A stretch of DNA of 35,161 bases from a virus. The stretch's first letter is position 1; each line of letters opens with the position of its first letter. The stretch is taken from positions 1-35,161 of the IMG/VR virus record IMGVR_UViG_3300042731_005260, one strand, 5' to 3'. The notes beneath the pieces were generated by a model. It was not told where the DNA came from and did no database searches. It saw only the letters and a program-made list of their open reading frames with translations. Position numbers and translations under genes: made by a program. This document shows, piece by piece, positions 19,402 to 27,111 of this stretch.

Positions 19402-19554
19402 TCACCCGTACGGGGTACGGCACACGGGGACGGGACCCGAGTTGGCCACCGTCACCACCACAACCACGATCCCGCACACCAGTACGGCAACCCCGATCGT
19501 GATCACCAGGACAGCCCACAACGGCGGTCCAACCGGCTGTTGATCACTTGTCAT
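19402..19554 (-). CDS. Small single-span membrane protein
   Basis: A 50-aa ORF starting at ATG 19554, overlapping the polymerase stop by 11 nt. One hydrophobic helix covers most of it (LWAVLVITIGVAVLVCGIVV, continuing VVVTVA), with a polar N-terminus and a short C-terminal tail. There is no strong Shine-Dalgarno, so translation may depend on coupling with the polymerase gene. Function is unknown. Confidence 0.5.
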   Translation of the reverse strand: MTSDQQPVGPPLWAVLVITIGVAVLVCGIVVVVVTVANSGPVPVCRTPYG

Positions 19555-21337
19555 AGCAGTGACCCCAACTCTCCCCGAGAGGTCCCGAGTCAGCCGTGAT
19601 CGGGACGTCCCGCCACTCAAACGTCAGGCACTCCACCACAGCGCGGGAGATGTCTTCGGCGTAGTCCCGCGGCACGCTCAGCACGATTTCGTCATGCACC
19701 TGCGCACGCAGCATCGACATCGTCTCGGGGTACTGATCGGCGAGTCTGAGCAGCCCGTGCATCATGATGTCCCGCGCCGCACCCTGCCCCATGAGGGCAG
19801 GTCCCTGCGTGTAGGCACGCTGTGGATCCGCACGCATCGGGCGACCAAATCCGTTGTTCATCAGTTCGCCGGACTCCGCCAGTGCACGTACCTCCCCCTG
19901 CCACTCCACCAGCCGCGGGAAGCGCTCACGCATGGACGTGTCGAACTGGCGCACCAGCATCGGATCAATGTCCTCACCGTTGGCGATGGCTTTGATACTG
20001 CGGCCATAGTTCCATCCGTGCCCAATCGCTTTCGCGTCGCTGCGTCGGGAGGCGTCCCCAAACAGGGCGAGAGCAATTTCGGTGTGCGGGTCGTCGCGCT
20101 TCAACATATCAATGTACGCGAGGTCTTGACTCAACCCCGCGACTGCACGCATGTCAACCTGCGAAAGGTCCACAGTCAAGATGACCTCACCCGGATCGGG
20201 AAGAAACACCTTGCGTTCAACATGGCGACCACCACGTTTGCCCATCACAGTGAGTCCAGGTTTCGTGAGACTCCACCTTCCGGTTGCCTGCTTGAAACTC
20301 ACGCGGGGGTGAACCCGCTCCCCAACCAGGCTGTTCGCCACAGTCTCATACACTGTGCGCGCACCAACGACCCGATGCACTAGCCTCGCAATCTCCACCA
20401 CAGCGGGCAAGTACATGTACTCATCAGCGATATGGCACATGTGATCAGCACTAATATCGATCTGGCCCGTCTTCTCGGTCGTCCAAATCGACGTTGCACC
20501 CGCATCCCGGAACGCCTTCTCTAGCGCGTACTTTCCGGCTTTCGTGCCGATCGGTGCCTTGTACGGCTTCCCTTTCGCATCGTGAAGCGGCAACCCGTAC
20601 CGGGCTGCCAGGATCTTCAATGACTCCGCTTTCAAAGACTCGATCTCGGCAACCCTACGCTGAAGCTCCGGAACATCCACCCGGAACCCATTTACACTGA
20701 TCTGTGCAGCGATAGCGGCCACCCGGTGTTCACGGACAAGGTAGTCCGGAATCGTGCCACCGAGATCCGTCATCAGAGCCGCGTACACGTCGCGGCTGGC
20801 CTCGACGTCCCGAACCAGATACCGCCGGAACTCAGCACCATCGGGGTTGTCAGGATCCGTGGGGATGGCGCCCCAACCGCCGTATTTCTTTGCAAGCTCT
20901 TTCGCGGTACCGAGCTTGCCGGCCACCCCGTACCGGGCAGCTACCGCGTCCAGACCGTACCGGCGGTCAGCGTCTACCCCTTTGTCCCGTGCCATCGGGG
21001 GGTCCAGGTGACGTGCCGCCAGCATGGCATCAAACAGCCGCCCATCACGCGCCATCTCGTGCACGGTGGCCATGTCCAGCACACCGGCCTTGACGAGAAC
21101 GGGGAGGTCAAACGCCATGATGTTGTGGCCGGTGACCAGAGGTGCCACCCGAACCAACCCACCGGCGAACCCCTCCGCGTTCGTGGTGTGATCGACTACC
21201 ATGACATTGTCATCCCCGTGTGCCGCACCAGCGAGACGGATGTACCCGGCATCGCCGTTGTACATGTTGGCAGCGTCGCCGGTTTCCAGGTCGAGCGTGA
21301 CAACCTGGTTATCTGAAGTCAACCCTTGGTGTTTCAT
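19544..21337 (-). CDS. Family A DNA polymerase (internal start in the 1434-codon frame)
   Basis: From ATG 21337 the frame gives 597 aa, a usual length for phage family A polymerases with proofreading. GGAGGG ends 3 nt before the ATG, which overlaps the stop of the embedded 80-codon gene by four bases (ATGA). Exonuclease motifs: TLDLETG (14-20), HNIMAFD (71-77) and RDVEASRDVY (176-185). Polymerase motif A: VDLSQVDMRA (389-398); motif B helix: RRSDAKAIGHGWNYG (431-445); motif C: VHDEIV (547-552). It would replicate the phage genome. Independent translation is inferred from these start signals and could run alongside the fused form. Confidence 0.55.
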   Translation of the reverse strand: MKHQGLTSDNQVVTLDLETGDAANMYNGDAGYIRLAGAAHGDDNVMVVDHTTNAEGFAGGLVRVAPLVTGHNIMAFDLPVLVKAGVLDMATVHEMARDGRLFDAMLAARHLDPPMARDKGVDADRRYGLDAVAARYGVAGKLGTAKELAKKYGGWGAIPTDPDNPDGAEFRRYLVRDVEASRDVYAALMTDLGGTIPDYLVREHRVAAIAAQISVNGFRVDVPELQRRVAEIESLKAESLKILAARYGLPLHDAKGKPYKAPIGTKAGKYALEKAFRDAGATSIWTTEKTGQIDISADHMCHIADEYMYLPAVVEIARLVHRVVGARTVYETVANSLVGERVHPRVSFKQATGRWSLTKPGLTVMGKRGGRHVERKVFLPDPGEVILTVDLSQVDMRAVAGLSQDLAYIDMLKRDDPHTEIALALFGDASRRSDAKAIGHGWNYGRSIKAIANGEDIDPMLVRQFDTSMRERFPRLVEWQGEVRALAESGELMNNGFGRPMRADPQRAYTQGPALMGQGAARDIMMHGLLRLADQYPETMSMLRAQVHDEIVLSVPRDYAEDISRAVVECLTFEWRDVPITADSGPLGESWGHCYDK

Positions 21338-23848
21338 GAGCCCTCCATCGGTATTCTTATCTCCATCCAACAGACTCTCCTGTTTTCCCGGCTCCCCCAA
21401 GCGAACCCGAGTTTCTTCAACTCTTCCCGAAATGTCGCTGGGTGACTCGGTACCCTCTCGTTCCTCCAAGCTATCTCGGCGTACCACATGTAAAGCCTCG
21501 ATTCCGAGTACGGCTTCCCCGTTTCCAACATCGCTACCATCGTCCTGACATCTTCCGGAGCAACCATCGTTGTCACTTTCTTTCGGCGGGTGGATAATAA
21601 TCGGTGGGTCGTCTTCTCGGACAGTCCACAGCGAGACGTGACCTCTCACGCTGCCAACACGTTCCACGTATATTCCCTCGTACCGCCTCCCTCTGAGTCT
21701 CGAATACGCCTCCCCGAGAAGCTTCGGATACGTCTTCTCTGTCGGGTCATCCAACTTCGGGGGAGCCATGAAATTCTGCGGCTCAGTAAGCGCTCTCGTA
21801 CGGACGTCCCCGGTTCGAAACGGCGTGTCCTTGAATTCATCCCGCAACCACCGCAGGTGACCTGCCCAGTATTGGGAGTCGAAGTCTGTCTCAGAACGCC
21901 ACGACTTCATATCGCCGAGGAAACCAGGTACACCCGCAGTCTCGACGATACCGCCAGCATACCGCTCCCAAGTCTCGAACGATCCGAACGAGACCCCGCG
22001 GGAAGGGTACGGCTGACCATCTGCGAACCAGGCACGAACCAGGGTAAGGATGGCGGTCAAGAGTTCCCGCCGGTGCTTGCGGGTCCAACTCCCGAGGTCA
22101 AGACCGCTCTGTCCGGGGTGGCGGAAACTTGACGCTTTCCGATCCTGCGGGTTGGCGTAGTTCGGTCGCAGCGCGATGCGGTACACCCGCCGGGTGAGGT
22201 CCCCTCGCACCTGGACGTTGTTCCCCAAGCTGATCCACGTGACCCGGTTCGGGAACTCCGCCATGGTGGACACCCCGAGAATCCGGTCCTGCCATGTCGA
22301 CGCGGTGAGCGCTTGAGCAAGGGCAGCACCCTCGATCGTGTGCGCCTCATCGAAGACGAAGAACTCCGCACCGGTGCGGAACGCCGCGGTGATCTGTTTA
22401 CGGAGTTCTTCCCTGTCATCTACGAAGTTCATCGGCCGGGCTGGTTCCCCGGTGTACACCGTGAGAATAGAGTCCGCGAGAAGGTTTTTCCCCACCCCCA
22501 TCTGCAACCCGTCCACCACCGCGAGCGGGACGCGTGGAACCAAGCCGCGGACAGCTGGTGTCGCCATCAACGCGAGCACGTTAGCTTTGTCAGCGTCGCT
22601 GGCAAACGGGAAGTCACCCAACCACTCGGTGAGCAGAAGCTCCCGTGCGGCCAGTATCTCAGCTGATGTTGGAGTCTCCGGAATCGTGAGCCCTTTCAAC
22701 TCGGGATCTGGAATCAGCATGGTCTCGGTGTCTTTGTCGTATCCCGGCTCTGTGCAGATGGATCCGTCTGCACGAGCAAACGGTGCGTTTGAGATCCGCT
22801 TTAGGGTGCTGAACTGGTCGGCTCTGCTCATGACTGCTGAAATCGAGTTGGAGTCCGGCCACGTGAAGTTGTACCGGGTCCCTTGCTTGTCTTGAATCTC
22901 ATCAACGGTGATGGCGGTTTCCTGTATTAGGTCCCGTTGTGCACCTCGGTCGATAGGGACCATGGCTCGGTCCCTCAACCGAGAGATCACACCACCGTGG
23001 TTGAACAGCTCCCGTCCGTCCCATTTTGTAAGGAATGCTTCGGTAAGTTCGTTGATCACTGTGAACCGATCTTGGTTGCACACGATCGTCACTCGACCGG
23101 GGTCGCTCGGGGCGACTACCGGTGCCTGCTTGGCTTTCGGCTTGGTGTCGGCTGGCTTGGTCTTCGCCCCGTCGATCAACCGGGCGAGGTACCCGCCGCG
23201 CCGTTCAGGGGAGCGGGAAGCCAACACGTCGTCAAGGCCAGACTTGCCGCTTGCTGGCAACCGGGCGAACTTGACGGATGTGGCACCTTCCATCTCCAGC
23301 GCATCAGCGAGGTTGGCACCTGCGTTGTAGACGTCCGGGTTTTCCGCGGCGTCAGCGTCGAGGATGATCACAACGTCTCGACCGTCCGCCACGCTGAGAT
23401 CAGGGATCGGGTTGCCACCGTGCTGCCACATCCGGCAGCCAGCCATGCCGTAGACCGCTACACCAGGGGGTGCGTAGCTCGCTGCGGCGAGACACTGTTT
23501 CGTCCCCTCAACGACGATGATCCGCTCAGAATCTGGGACCACTCGGACAGCCCAGAGAACCGGTTCCATGTCCTTGCGGAACATGTACTTGCGCGGACGT
23601 CCCTTGCTGTCCGTGGTGGGGTTGTCCGGTCGCACCTGGATCTCAACCCGGCCGTTCGGGTTGGTCCAGGGGAAGAGCAAGGCGGGGACGTTGGCGAAGT
23701 TGTTCCATGGTTCAGGCAGGTTTGTGACGTCTGCCCGCGTCTCCAAGGATCGTACCCCGAGCGACGCTGCGAGCTCGACATCCACGGCATGTTCCCGCAG
23801 GTAATCGGCATGCTTGGAGGTGATCGGACTCGCTGTGTTACGATCCAT
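19544..23848 (-). CDS. Primase-helicase joined in frame to family A DNA polymerase
   Basis: One uninterrupted 1434-codon frame. Residues 1-230: primase-type TOPRIM domain with VVEGTKQ (E114) and IILDADA (D164, D166). Residues 400-600: AAA+/SF3-like ATPase with GLQMGVGKN (447-455, the usual S/T after GK replaced by N), FFVFDE (496-501), sensor SLGNN (540-544) and RR (553-554). About 700-750 looks like a closing winged helix. Residues 752-837 are a low-complexity linker; 838-1434 is a complete polymerase with 3'-5' exonuclease. ATG 23848 has GGAAGGA upstream. Either a natural primase-polymerase fusion or two genes without an intervening stop; an internal start at 21337 favours at least some separate polymerase. 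Confidence 0.8.
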   Translation of the reverse strand: MDRNTASPITSKHADYLREHAVDVELAASLGVRSLETRADVTNLPEPWNNFANVPALLFPWTNPNGRVEIQVRPDNPTTDSKGRPRKYMFRKDMEPVLWAVRVVPDSERIIVVEGTKQCLAAASYAPPGVAVYGMAGCRMWQHGGNPIPDLSVADGRDVVIILDADAAENPDVYNAGANLADALEMEGATSVKFARLPASGKSGLDDVLASRSPERRGGYLARLIDGAKTKPADTKPKAKQAPVVAPSDPGRVTIVCNQDRFTVINELTEAFLTKWDGRELFNHGGVISRLRDRAMVPIDRGAQRDLIQETAITVDEIQDKQGTRYNFTWPDSNSISAVMSRADQFSTLKRISNAPFARADGSICTEPGYDKDTETMLIPDPELKGLTIPETPTSAEILAARELLLTEWLGDFPFASDADKANVLALMATPAVRGLVPRVPLAVVDGLQMGVGKNLLADSILTVYTGEPARPMNFVDDREELRKQITAAFRTGAEFFVFDEAHTIEGAALAQALTASTWQDRILGVSTMAEFPNRVTWISLGNNVQVRGDLTRRVYRIALRPNYANPQDRKASSFRHPGQSGLDLGSWTRKHRRELLTAILTLVRAWFADGQPYPSRGVSFGSFETWERYAGGIVETAGVPGFLGDMKSWRSETDFDSQYWAGHLRWLRDEFKDTPFRTGDVRTRALTEPQNFMAPPKLDDPTEKTYPKLLGEAYSRLRGRRYEGIYVERVGSVRGHVSLWTVREDDPPIIIHPPKESDNDGCSGRCQDDGSDVGNGEAVLGIEALHVVRRDSLEEREGTESPSDISGRVEETRVRLGEPGKQESLLDGDKNTDGGLMKHQGLTSDNQVVTLDLETGDAANMYNGDAGYIRLAGAAHGDDNVMVVDHTTNAEGFAGGLVRVAPLVTGHNIMAFDLPVLVKAGVLDMATVHEMARDGRLFDAMLAARHLDPPMARDKGVDADRRYGLDAVAARYGVAGKLGTAKELAKKYGGWGAIPTDPDNPDGAEFRRYLVRDVEASRDVYAALMTDLGGTIPDYLVREHRVAAIAAQISVNGFRVDVPELQRRVAEIESLKAESLKILAARYGLPLHDAKGKPYKAPIGTKAGKYALEKAFRDAGATSIWTTEKTGQIDISADHMCHIADEYMYLPAVVEIARLVHRVVGARTVYETVANSLVGERVHPRVSFKQATGRWSLTKPGLTVMGKRGGRHVERKVFLPDPGEVILTVDLSQVDMRAVAGLSQDLAYIDMLKRDDPHTEIALALFGDASRRSDAKAIGHGWNYGRSIKAIANGEDIDPMLVRQFDTSMRERFPRLVEWQGEVRALAESGELMNNGFGRPMRADPQRAYTQGPALMGQGAARDIMMHGLLRLADQYPETMSMLRAQVHDEIVLSVPRDYAEDISRAVVECLTFEWRDVPITADSGPLGESWGHCYDK
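21334..21576 (-). CDS. Embedded 80-codon gene, winged-helix-like
   Basis: This ORF is in a different frame inside the primase-polymerase linker. GTG 21576 or ATG 21567 starts it; ribosome-binding sequence is weak. The protein looks natural: 'PEDVRTMVAMLETGKPYS', then 'YMWYAEIAWRNERVPSHPATF', 'REELKKLGFAWGSRENRRVC', 'WMEIRI', much like the C-terminal winged helix of D5-type primases. By contrast the same DNA in the polymerase frame encodes a disordered linker. It ends ATGA on the polymerase start. If real, about 240 bp encode two proteins. Confidence 0.5.
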   Translation of the reverse strand: MTTMVAPEDVRTMVAMLETGKPYSESRLYMWYAEIAWRNERVPSHPATFREELKKLGFAWGSRENRRVCWMEIRIPMEGS

Positions 23849-23918: not shown

Positions 23919-24539
23919 CTACTCGGACACCCGTGCGTTGCCGGACACCCGTGCGTTGCCGGACACCCGAGCACTCATGCGTATCCATGCGTCACCGAAC
24001 ACCTGCGCACGGCCGTACACCCACGCGTTGTCGTACACCCACGCGTTGTCGTATACCTGCGCTTGACCGAACACCCGGGCGTTACCAGACAACATCGCGT
24101 TGCCGAACACCCGCGTGCTACCGAACGCCTGAGCGTTGTGGCGTACTTGTACATCGCCGAACATCCGGACGTTACCGGATACCCGCGCGTTGTCGAACAG
24201 CTGAACGTTTCCAGATACTTGCGCACTGATGTACACCCATGCGTTTTCGAACACCTGCGCGTTGCCGAACACCTGAGCGTCGTTGAACACCCGCGCGTCG
24301 TCAGACACTTGTGCAGCCCCGTATACCCGTGCAGCCCCGTATACCCGTGCAGCCCCGTATACCCGTGCGCCACCTAACACCCGTGCGTTATCAAACACCC
24401 AGCACAACCCATTTTGCGAGAGGTTGTTTTCGTTACAAACCAAACCTCCGAGATCCCCCGTTTTTACACCAATTTCGGGAATGTCGCGGAGAGCTTTCAC
24501 CCGGAACAATCCTGTTTCCGGAACAAGTTCGTACTTCAT
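23919..24539 (-). CDS. Hexapeptide-repeat (YdcK-like) beta-helix protein, copy 1
   Basis: The 206-aa protein starts at ATG 24539 with AAGGGG upstream. The first 45 residues (MKYELVPETGLFRVKAL ... VKTGDLGGLVCNENNLSQNG) form the conserved cap seen in YdcK-like proteins, followed by about 26 hexapeptide coils of the form [AV]-x-V-x-[GDN]-[NDA] such as ARVYGA, AQVFGN, AWVYDN. This predicts a left-handed parallel beta-helix. Role unknown. The same cap recurs in the genes at 24542 and 26653. Coil number appears to vary by whole 18-bp units. Confidence 0.75.
   Translation of the reverse strand: MKYELVPETGLFRVKALRDIPEIGVKTGDLGGLVCNENNLSQNGLCWVFDNARVLGGARVYGAARVYGAARVYGAAQVSDDARVFNDAQVFGNAQVFENAWVYISAQVSGNVQLFDNARVSGNVRMFGDVQVRHNAQAFGSTRVFGNAMLSGNARVFGQAQVYDNAWVYDNAWVYGRAQVFGDAWIRMSARVSGNARVSGNARVSE
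24311..24364. repeat. Three perfect 18-bp tandem repeats
   Basis: The unit GTGCAGCCCCGTATACCC occurs three times in a row (24311, 24329, 24347). Each equals one hexapeptide coil of the protein on the minus strand. Similar 18-bp pairs are seen at about 23926-23965 and 24012-24055. In-frame units suggest recent slippage or recombination. Confidence 0.9.
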
Positions 24540-24541
24540 GA

Positions 24542-24988
24542 TTACCCCTTGTCGCATACCCGTGCGTTGCCGAACACCCGCATTTCTCCGGACACTTTAT
24601 CGTTGTCGCACACCCACGCGTCGCCGAACACATGCGCATCGCCGAACACGTTCGCGTCATCAAGCACCCGCGCGTTACCGAACACCTTCGCATTTTCGTA
24701 GATCCACGCATCACCGCACACATGCGCGTTGTCGTACACCTGCGCGTTTCCGTGGATCCACGCATCACCAAACACCCTCGCGTTACCGAACACCCACGCG
24801 TTGCCGGACACCCACGCGTTATCAAGCACCTGCGCGTTACCGGACACCCAGCACAACCCGTTTTGCGAGAGGCTGTCTTCATCGGAGACCACACCCCCGA
24901 GGTCCCCAACCTTTACCCGAATACTAGGAATGTCGATTAGTGCACGGACCCGGAAGAGGTTGCCCTCCGGAACAAGTTTGTACTTCAT
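24542..24988 (-). CDS. Hexapeptide-repeat (YdcK-like) beta-helix protein, copy 2
   Basis: The 148-aa paralog starts at ATG 24988 with GGAGAG 5 nt upstream. Cap: 'MKYKLVPEGNLFRVRALIDI ... VKVGDLGGVVSDEDSLSQNG', then about 17 coils (NAQVLD, NAWVSG, NARVFG, DAHVFG). It ends 2 nt before copy 1 begins, so both are probably translated from one message that also carries the helicase. Coils here are less repetitive at DNA level than in copy 1. Confidence 0.75.
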   Translation of the reverse strand: MKYKLVPEGNLFRVRALIDIPSIRVKVGDLGGVVSDEDSLSQNGLCWVSGNAQVLDNAWVSGNAWVFGNARVFGDAWIHGNAQVYDNAHVCGDAWIYENAKVFGNARVLDDANVFGDAHVFGDAWVCDNDKVSGEMRVFGNARVCDKG

Positions 24989-24997
24989 AATCTCTCC

Positions 24998-26656
24998 TCA
25001 CACAGTAAGTTTGCGGACTGCACGACGTGCTTGAATCCTGGTGATCAAATCGGCAGCATCACCCCGAGTCCGAATCAGTTGAACCTTGTTGCTCGGAAGA
25101 CCTTCCCGAACCAATCGGCTGAGTTGCTGATCGGTCGGGGGTGCGGTGAGCCACCGGGCTTTCCGCTCCGCAAGAGACTTGAACGCTTTCGCTCGGTCCT
25201 CCCCGATACCTTGTGCCCAGTCAACTGGCAGCTGTTCGTGGAGGACCGTGAGCTTGCCCGCGTTGTACGCGGCAAGCTTCCAGGTGTCCACCCCGTTGGG
25301 AACCATGACCACGACTTCCCTGCCCGCACCGAGACACCAGCCGGACTCAACTGGCAGCCACCTCAGACGCGAGGCACCGAAGACGTCAACCGTCTTTGAA
25401 GCCTTCACCGCGCAGGTCTCGTGTTGGAGTTCACCAGCAGCAACCAGCCGCTTGGGGAGGGGGCGAGTGCACAACCGGCACCGGTGGTTGGGGTACTCAC
25501 ACTGTGACATCGGAACGCCGCAGGTTGGGCACGTCTGCTCTTCGCTATCCTCCCGCTTGCGCTTCGCATCGTCAGCTTCAAGACCGAGATCGAGGTCCAC
25601 CAGCGACACCAACTCATGCCGCTCGCTGGCACCGGTCACGTCCAGTACCAGGAGGTCCTTTTTACCGGGGTGAAGCCGGGTACCGCGCCCAACCATCTGC
25701 ACGTACAAGCCGTGGAATTTGGTCGGTCGGGCCACCACAACGCAGTCAATAGATGGTTCGTCGAACCCCTCCGTCAAAACCGCGCAGTTTGTGACCACCT
25801 GCGTTTCACCAGTCTTCAACCGCGCCAACACGGCTTTCCGGTCGTCTGTTGGCATGTCCCCGTACACCGCTTCAGCGGCGATACCGCGGGCAGACAGTGC
25901 CTCAGCGAGATGTTGCGCGGTCTTCACGGTGGGGGTGAATGCTACCCCTTTCCGGTCGCTCGCGTACGTCACGTACGCGTCGGCAATCTGGTCGATGACA
26001 CCGGTAGCTTCCATGGCGTCACCGAGAGAACCTTTCGAAAAATCCCCGCCCGATTTCTTCACCCGGTCGAGATTCATAGTGGTCTCGACAGTTTGAGCGG
26101 GAAGGATCGGGCACAGGTAGCCCCCGTAAATCGCTTCCCGAATCGACATGTAGGAAACAACTTTTTCCCACACCCCGAGTGCTTTTCCATCTCGCTCGGG
26201 GGTGGCTGTGAAGCCGACAGTTAGCGGACCGTACGGTGAGAACGACCCGAGTGCCGTAAGGGTTTTCATGTATATCGGGGCTACCGCGTGGTGCGCTTCA
26301 TCGACAACAACAGTCGCGAACTCTCCGAGCTGAGAGAGCCGGTTGTCCCGGTGCACAGTGTCTATACTGGCGACCACGATATCCCGGTTAACCTCGTTGT
26401 GTTTTGCCTTCACCAAACCGGTACTAAGTTCAGGTGCGATCCATGACAGACTCTCAATCGTTTGGGAAGCAAGCTCTTCCCGGTGCACTAGCACTAAGGA
26501 TTTGCCCAACGATGAGCGTTCTTTGATAGCCGCGCTGAATGCCACAGTCTTTCCGGTCCCGGTCGGGTGCACCACCAGGGGGCGACGCACCCCCTCCCGC
26601 TCTGCTTGGTGAATCGCCATCAGCGCTTCCTGCTGATACGGCCTGAGAGTAATCAC
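24998..26656 (-). CDS. SF2 DEAH-box helicase with zinc-binding insert
   Basis: The 552-aa protein starts at GTG 26656 overlapping the previous stop (GTGA). RecA domain 1: LRPYQQEA (Q-motif-like, 4-11), PTGTGKT (31-37), DEAH (119-122), GFTATPER (148-155). Domain 2: 'GVAFTPTVKTAQHLAEAL', 'TEGFDEPSIDCVV' and 'QMVGRGTRLHPG'. After residue 365 a cysteine cluster (CPTCGVPMSQC ... CRLC) suggests zinc binding. It is typical of phage helicases of the RadD/UvsW group that unwind or remodel branched DNA during replication and recombination. It lies between beta-helix genes. Confidence 0.9.
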   Translation of the reverse strand: MITLRPYQQEALMAIHQAEREGVRRPLVVHPTGTGKTVAFSAAIKERSSLGKSLVLVHREELASQTIESLSWIAPELSTGLVKAKHNEVNRDIVVASIDTVHRDNRLSQLGEFATVVVDEAHHAVAPIYMKTLTALGSFSPYGPLTVGFTATPERDGKALGVWEKVVSYMSIREAIYGGYLCPILPAQTVETTMNLDRVKKSGGDFSKGSLGDAMEATGVIDQIADAYVTYASDRKGVAFTPTVKTAQHLAEALSARGIAAEAVYGDMPTDDRKAVLARLKTGETQVVTNCAVLTEGFDEPSIDCVVVARPTKFHGLYVQMVGRGTRLHPGKKDLLVLDVTGASERHELVSLVDLDLGLEADDAKRKREDSEEQTCPTCGVPMSQCEYPNHRCRLCTRPLPKRLVAAGELQHETCAVKASKTVDVFGASRLRWLPVESGWCLGAGREVVVMVPNGVDTWKLAAYNAGKLTVLHEQLPVDWAQGIGEDRAKAFKSLAERKARWLTAPPTDQQLSRLVREGLPSNKVQLIRTRGDAADLITRIQARRAVRKLTV

Positions 26657-27111
26657 CGGTACACCCTCTCGTTCCCAGAAACCACGTCGTATCCAGACAC
26701 CGCCGCATCACCCGATACCAACGCGTTTTCACACACTAACGCTCTTCCAGATATAACTGCATTACCACGCACCCTCACTTGGCCACGTACTAACGCGTCA
26801 TCACATACTTTCGCGTACTCATGTACAACCGCGTACTCACATACGTGTGCATACCCGCATACATGCACACACCCATACACGCGCGCATGCCCACCCACAC
26901 GTGCAAACCCATATATTTGCGCATCACCGAACACCCTTGCATCGTCAGTTATCGATGCACACTCCGACACCCAGCACAACCCAGTTTGACAAAGGTTGTC
27001 TTTGCCGGAAACCAGCCCCCCGAGGTCACCAACCTTTACACGGATACTCTGGATACCAATGAGTGCGCGAATTCGGAAGAGGTCACCTTCCGGAACGAGT
27101 TCGTATTTCAC
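26653..27111 (-). CDS. Hexapeptide-repeat (YdcK-like) beta-helix protein, copy 3
   Basis: The 152-aa paralog starts at GTG 27111 with GGGGAGA upstream, overlapping the gene before it (GTGA). The cap (MKYELVPEGDLFRIRALIGI ... VKVGDLGGLVSGKDNLCQTG) is nearly that of copies 1 and 2. About 17 coils follow (DARVFG, QIYGFA, HARVYG, DALVRG), more diverged than in the other copies. The helicase gene now lies between copies 2 and 3. Confidence 0.75.
   Translation of the reverse strand: MKYELVPEGDLFRIRALIGIQSIRVKVGDLGGLVSGKDNLCQTGLCWVSECASITDDARVFGDAQIYGFARVGGHARVYGCVHVCGYAHVCEYAVVHEYAKVCDDALVRGQVRVRGNAVISGRALVCENALVSGDAAVSGYDVVSGNERVYR

Follow-up and report, generated by a model that had tools for sequence, protein, structure and literature searches.

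A candidate winged-helix gene in a second frame of the linker of a fused primase-helicase-polymerase in a phiAsp2-like actinophage

The fused replication gene and its relatives

The stretch of DNA analysed here (the window) is an IMG/VR virus record of 35,161 bases. It belongs to a phiAsp2-like actinophage, with several stretches of phiAsp2 resembling it at 72-84% DNA identity. The same sequence was found in one other record only, a second IMG/VR contig with 100% identity over 12,963 bases, which was not counted as independent evidence because it is identical. The minus strand carries one long gene for a fused primase, helicase and DNA polymerase, and a second open reading frame lies within its linker (Table 1). 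No internal stop interrupts the 1434 codons of the fusion. Both ATPase motifs, DGLQMGVGKN and FFVFDEAH, are present, and Pfam placed the DNA_pol_A domain at residues 1165-1429. Separate Streptomyces phage polymerases, when aligned with the polymerase part, begin just ahead of the same DxETG motif. Elsewhere in the window, three proteins (23919-24557, 24542-24988 and 26653-27111, minus strand) contain YdcK-type beta-solenoid repeats, the last one slightly below the Pfam cut-off, and a helicase gene lies between them.

Table 1. Features of the fused replication gene and of the reading frame embedded in its linker
Feature	Position	Strand	Basis or remark
Fused Toprim-type primase / ATPase (helicase) / family A DNA polymerase	19544..23848	-	1434 aa, one open frame
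Toprim-like primase domain (DUF3854), residues 109-214	23207..23524	-	Pfam PF12965, E 1.2e-6, above cut-off
Walker A GVGKN of the ATPase, residues 451-455	22484..22498	-	Sequence motif
Frame-0 linker from the primase-helicase C-terminal domain to the polymerase exonuclease domain, 105 codons	21305..21619	-	In-frame, stop-free, acidic
Embedded gene in the +1 frame, 80 aa, predicted winged-helix protein of the Pas1/RFX-like family	21334..21576	-	Profile match and AF2
Alternative ATG of the embedded gene (codon 4), 8 nt after AGAAAG	21565..21567	-	Duplex energy, weak signal
GGAGGG, Shine-Dalgarno-like site ahead of the polymerase ATG	21341..21346	-	Duplex -10.2 kcal/mol
ATGA overlap of the embedded gene stop and the possible internal polymerase start (residue 838)	21334..21337	-	Sequence
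Polymerase part (exonuclease and family A polymerase), residues 838-1434	19547..21337	-	Pfam PF00476, E 2.9e-27

A preliminary description of this DNA had proposed that primase-helicase and polymerase share one frame of 1434 codons. This holds, since the frame is free of stops and has a full-length fused homologue in Pas55 of Actinoplanes phage phiAsp2 (AY576796; PHROG 17), with 59.5% identity in an alignment from residue 2 to the end. Pas55 likewise combines primase, GKN-type ATPase and PolA in one ORF, but its P/E/D-rich linker is without an embedded gene. Further relatives were gathered by IMG/VR scans for the polymerase motif GHGWNYGR and the Walker A motif DGLQMGVGKN. Among records holding both sides of the junction (17 including phiAsp2, then 14 more, of which G034 ends at the contig edge inside the polymerase), the junction was in frame and stop-free in 30 IMG/VR relatives plus phiAsp2. 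The gap between the enzymes was a multiple of three in length in every near relative spanning it. The polymerases of the fused records formed one clade with a support of 100/100, within which basal branching was without resolution and G019 and G020 were nearest to the window. Scans of genome contigs yielded no relative in the first round and only two distant polymerases in the second.

No near relative has a stop between the enzymes; the distant relative G026 (L133) is unfused. It shares 46% identity over the primase-helicase, and its polymerase follows separately after a stop with a GTGA overlap, which possibly represents the pre-fusion state. The G026 primase-helicase is of the GVGKN type, yet the polymerase encoded as its own gene is a different one. 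Two statements of the preliminary description stand in part. That the two enzymes are usually separate applies to most phages, but not to this clade, where they are fused. The GVGKN in place of GKT/S is present, but it is no oddity of this genome and is fixed throughout the clade: GKN was found in all members checked, GKT or GKS in related plasmid replication ATPases. With Pas55 and 30 IMG/VR relatives fused likewise, the fusion is a conserved, previously annotated architecture and thus known in itself. A joining of the frames by assembly or sequencing error is hardly credible. The sole second record is identical and may stem from the same reads; against this, a fused frame is what the clade normally has, so that no error is needed to explain it.

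Related arrangements occur in other replicons. In Woodruffvirus (TP1604, phiSAJS1) a related primase N-terminus and PolA are adjacent in the same order, but they are separate genes about 100 bases apart and the helicase is different. At the same primase/polymerase junction, Streptomyces phage Abt2graduatex2 (L009 3692-4027) carries a 111-aa gene of no known family. The Streptomyces plasmid pS1D4-14.2 also encodes a primase-helicase, in this case P4-type, fused to PolA in one ORF of 1446 aa; unlike in the window, primase-helicase type and polymerase branch are others, and this fusion apparently arose independently. The GP55 replicase of lactococcal phage 1706 unites helicase, primase and family B polymerase in one chain (PMC12205980); it differs from the window in its archaeo-eukaryotic primase and its family B polymerase, and the description consulted mentions no embedded gene.

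The linker and the identity of the embedded gene

The linkers of the relatives sit at the same place, measure 174-459 nt and are mostly P/E/D-rich. Acidity is a property common to the linkers of the clade (D/E content of 24% in the window, 16-33% in the clade). The proline content was 6% in the window versus 12-23% in 17 relatives measured. By eye, short modules that resemble each other, many of them containing cysteines, turn up in frame and in differing order across the linkers of relatives (G008/G039, G035/G038, G021/G038, G028/G038 and G016/G033/G036), with WDGKLGCSLHGGV..CGHE, LCPHGV..FCGNCHEE and HGEAPG.L.EM..AL as examples, which suggests module shuffling within the linker.

Other short elements were also seen in linker DNA. 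The sequence CTGTGGA(C/T) is repeated in the linkers of G002, G006, phiAsp2 and G021 and is near the actinobacterial DnaA box, TTGTCCACA; the window linker carries TTATCCACC. Judged by this likeness, the repeats could mark an origin within the coding linker. A second element, TTGACA-N7-GTCAA, is scattered in phiAsp2 (G007; L095), G002, G005, G006, G008, G013, G015, G016 and G021 with up to 16 strand hits per genome (0 for the reversed control pattern) and has no site in the window. In phiAsp2 several copies are followed by TGTAAT-like -10 boxes ahead of genes, and these sites look like promoter-operators. Several relatives have one copy inside the fusion linker, without a -10 box in those seen. 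An Rfam search of the region gave no match.

The preliminary description had also placed a second gene within the linker. An ORF of 80 codons is indeed present, and its protein matches a winged-helix family beyond chance. The ORF was not found in the linker of any relative examined, and direct comparison of the protein with Pfam, PHROGs and phage records gave nothing significant (a Mycobacterium phage match was weak, E 0.4). In the records of the relatives, the 80-aa protein weakly matched small free-standing genes, and through one of these phiAsp2 Pas1 was reached, which GenBank lists as a putative RFX1-like DNA-binding protein. The homologues comprise Pas1 and genes of G006, G016 (two), G021 (two), G005, G008, G013 and more. 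Using a profile of six family genes without the window protein, the window ORF was recovered from the whole genome at E 2.1e-8, and among 515 window ORFs it was the sole significant match (E 1.2e-8). A non-circular profile, built from members not reached through the window protein (Pas1, G005, G008 and G013 twice), gave 18.4 bits (E 6e-5 to 9e-5), with 8.1 bits for the best of 2000 shuffles. Over all profile tests the embedded ORF scored 18-32 bits versus 8-9 bits for the best shuffle. We consider it very improbable that an ordinary drifting linker merely happens to be open in this frame and that the resemblance to the family is spurious. Several linkers of relatives do have other frames that stay open for at least 80 codons; nevertheless, independent profiles without the window sequence pick this ORF as the only significant one of the window, far above 2000 shuffles.

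The relationship to known members is distant (about 20-25% identity), and the family core (LY, P, L and G positions) is intact. The family profile matched the RFX1 winged helix 1dp7 in PDB (E 0.0026), and single members weakly matched profiles of RFX, the Cdc6 C-terminus and the phage primase C-terminus. AlphaFold (AF2) with an eight-sequence alignment predicted three helices and a two-stranded wing (HHHEE) at pLDDT 74 and pTM 0.61, with low confidence for the wing itself; a single-sequence fold (pLDDT 51) was discarded in favour of this model. Structural neighbours of the model are nearly all winged helices, with Z up to 7 and none strong, and Foldseek with the model gave no match below E 0.2. 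By profile and predicted fold, the embedded protein is thus assigned to the Pas1/RFX-like winged-helix family, and from its family it would be expected to bind DNA, perhaps at the replication origin or at regulatory sites. Pas1 and the stand-alone Pas1-like genes share profile and predicted fold with it, but are free-standing near the portal gene, whereas the window gene lies inside another coding frame. These genes often form tandem pairs (phiAsp2 1-640; G016, G021, G039 and L093), which lie near the portal gene in the genomes inspected for this; Pas2 fits the profile weakly.

Two frames over one stretch

In coding potential, the +1 frame of the embedded stretch scored 7.6-13 nats above frame 0, in agreement with the earlier impression that the embedded frame is the more protein-like. 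In real window genes the +1 frame lies about 30 nats per 240 bases below the true frame. Coding potential favoured frame 0 in the linkers of fifteen relatives, with two exceptions among further relatives. The divergent, proline-rich linker of G040 gave a contrast as strong as that of the window without a recognisable protein, so coding potential counts as supporting evidence only. Given the linker protein, the probability of an open +1 frame of 80 codons is 0.22. ORF length and coding potential as sole evidence were therefore judged insufficient, considering this value, G040 and the open frames in relatives. Taken literally, only one frame is kept across the linker, as only frame 0 is open in relatives; the embedded frame still has homologues outside the linker.

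Frame 0 was evaluated in the same way. Given the winged-helix protein and the codon usage of the window, the probability that it is stop-free is 0.03-0.06. Its reading over the embedded gene contains 20 acidic residues out of 79; in the same shifted frame of 547 overlapping stretches of real genes the mean was 6.4 and the maximum 15. Synonymous codon permutation within the embedded gene yielded a mean of 14.4 acidic residues (P 0.0025). Third-position purines make up 72% in the embedded gene versus 46-63% in homologues. Together, these values suggest that both frames are constrained, in line with the 240 bp of dual coding proposed earlier, which the sequence supports. We read this as an adaptation of synonymous positions to the linker, being aware of the fact that a purine-rich gene would look acidic too. 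It is quite improbable that only the embedded gene and two separate enzymes matter, with frame 0 open by chance and the fusion non-functional here. The chance value of 0.03-0.06 is not extreme and the distant G026 has an unfused primase-helicase, but every near relative has the fusion, the two enzymes stand in the correct frame relation (1 in 3), the linker is read as a strongly acidic peptide like those of relatives, and without a stop, ribosomes reading the primase must enter the polymerase.

The embedded gene starts at GTG 21576 with an ATG at codon 4, and the duplex energies of the two starts are -5.1 and -7.0 kcal/mol, respectively. Ahead of the polymerase, a duplex of -10 is reached by only 3.6% of all ATG/GTG. 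Its GGAGGG and ATG, as well as the end of the embedded ORF in ATGA on the polymerase start, were confirmed in the sequence as first described. The acidic linkers of relatives contain comparable Shine-Dalgarno-like internal starts; a free polymerase made from GGAGGG-ATG is therefore plausible as a possibility only. With no stop at the junction, ribosomes reading the primase must continue, and the fusion is expected as the main product. Programmed -1 frameshifting into an AAGTGA stop was set aside, as no slippery heptamer was visible by eye.

The embedded gene might be a recently captured, unexpressed passenger on DNA that codes only for the linker, only the fusion being made. The weak ribosome site, the absence of the gene from this place in all relatives and the fair chance of an open +1 frame (P 0.22) speak for this explanation. 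It is disfavoured by the codon signal, and also because the family core and the HHHEE fold, as predicted, are intact although identity to known members is only 20-25%; unless captured very recently, a passenger frame would hardly be expected to retain residues typical of the family. We regard it as unlikely, though as the most serious competitor.

Probable capture of a gene into the linker

We consider it probable that the linker captured a winged-helix gene out of frame, with the fusion remaining open. In one replication chain of 1434 aa, a Toprim primase and a P-loop ATPase (helicase) would be joined by a flexible acidic linker to a family A polymerase, with the linker as the place where modules are taken up. 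In the lineage of the window, a gene of the phage group's own Pas1/RFX-like winged-helix family would have replaced the linker in the +1 frame. An insertion at this place, though in a different frame, agrees with the mosaic pattern of the relatives' linkers. Frame 0 over the inserted gene would have stayed open and acidic, so that the fusion is still made and its linker peptide is an out-of-frame reading of a DNA-binding gene. The small protein is probably produced by internal initiation at GTG 21576 or ATG 21567, and free polymerase may arise where some ribosomes re-initiate at the overlapping ATGA. We infer the direction of insertion, the expression, the DNA binding and the free polymerase.

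Several observations count against capture: the gene lies in no relative's linker, the family match is distant (18-32 bits), the ribosome site of the embedded gene is weak, the acidity may partly be a by-product of purine richness, and G040 shows a similar contrast. The more specific claim is that the linker of an essential replicase fusion received an existing DNA-binding gene in another frame, that synonymous changes gave an open acidic tether, and that a 240-bp stretch serves both proteins by gene capture instead of overprinting. We regard this as nearly evenly balanced, leaning slightly toward doubt.

Overprinting is the usual route to overlapping viral genes and gives a new protein without homologues (PMC8227390). 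Overprinted genes resemble the window in having two sense frames on one DNA stretch, one reading being disordered (PMC8227390). In usual overprinting, however, the new, homologue-less gene lies inside the old one, whereas in the window homologues exist for the nested gene, and the new sequence would be the linker reading. By profile and predicted fold, a winged-helix family member sits here where no other clade member has one. A limited literature search found no paper on the phiAsp2 fusion and no description of an overlap by out-of-frame capture.

The fusion places primase, helicase and family A polymerase on one chain throughout the clade, so that the idea of a compact replisome made of a single protein can be put to the test. 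The overlap is unusual in that the homologues belong to the nested gene, and in that an essential enzyme appears to have a linker adapted to being read through this gene. Phages may thus be able to use disordered linkers as landing sites for additional genes and leave the enzyme intact.
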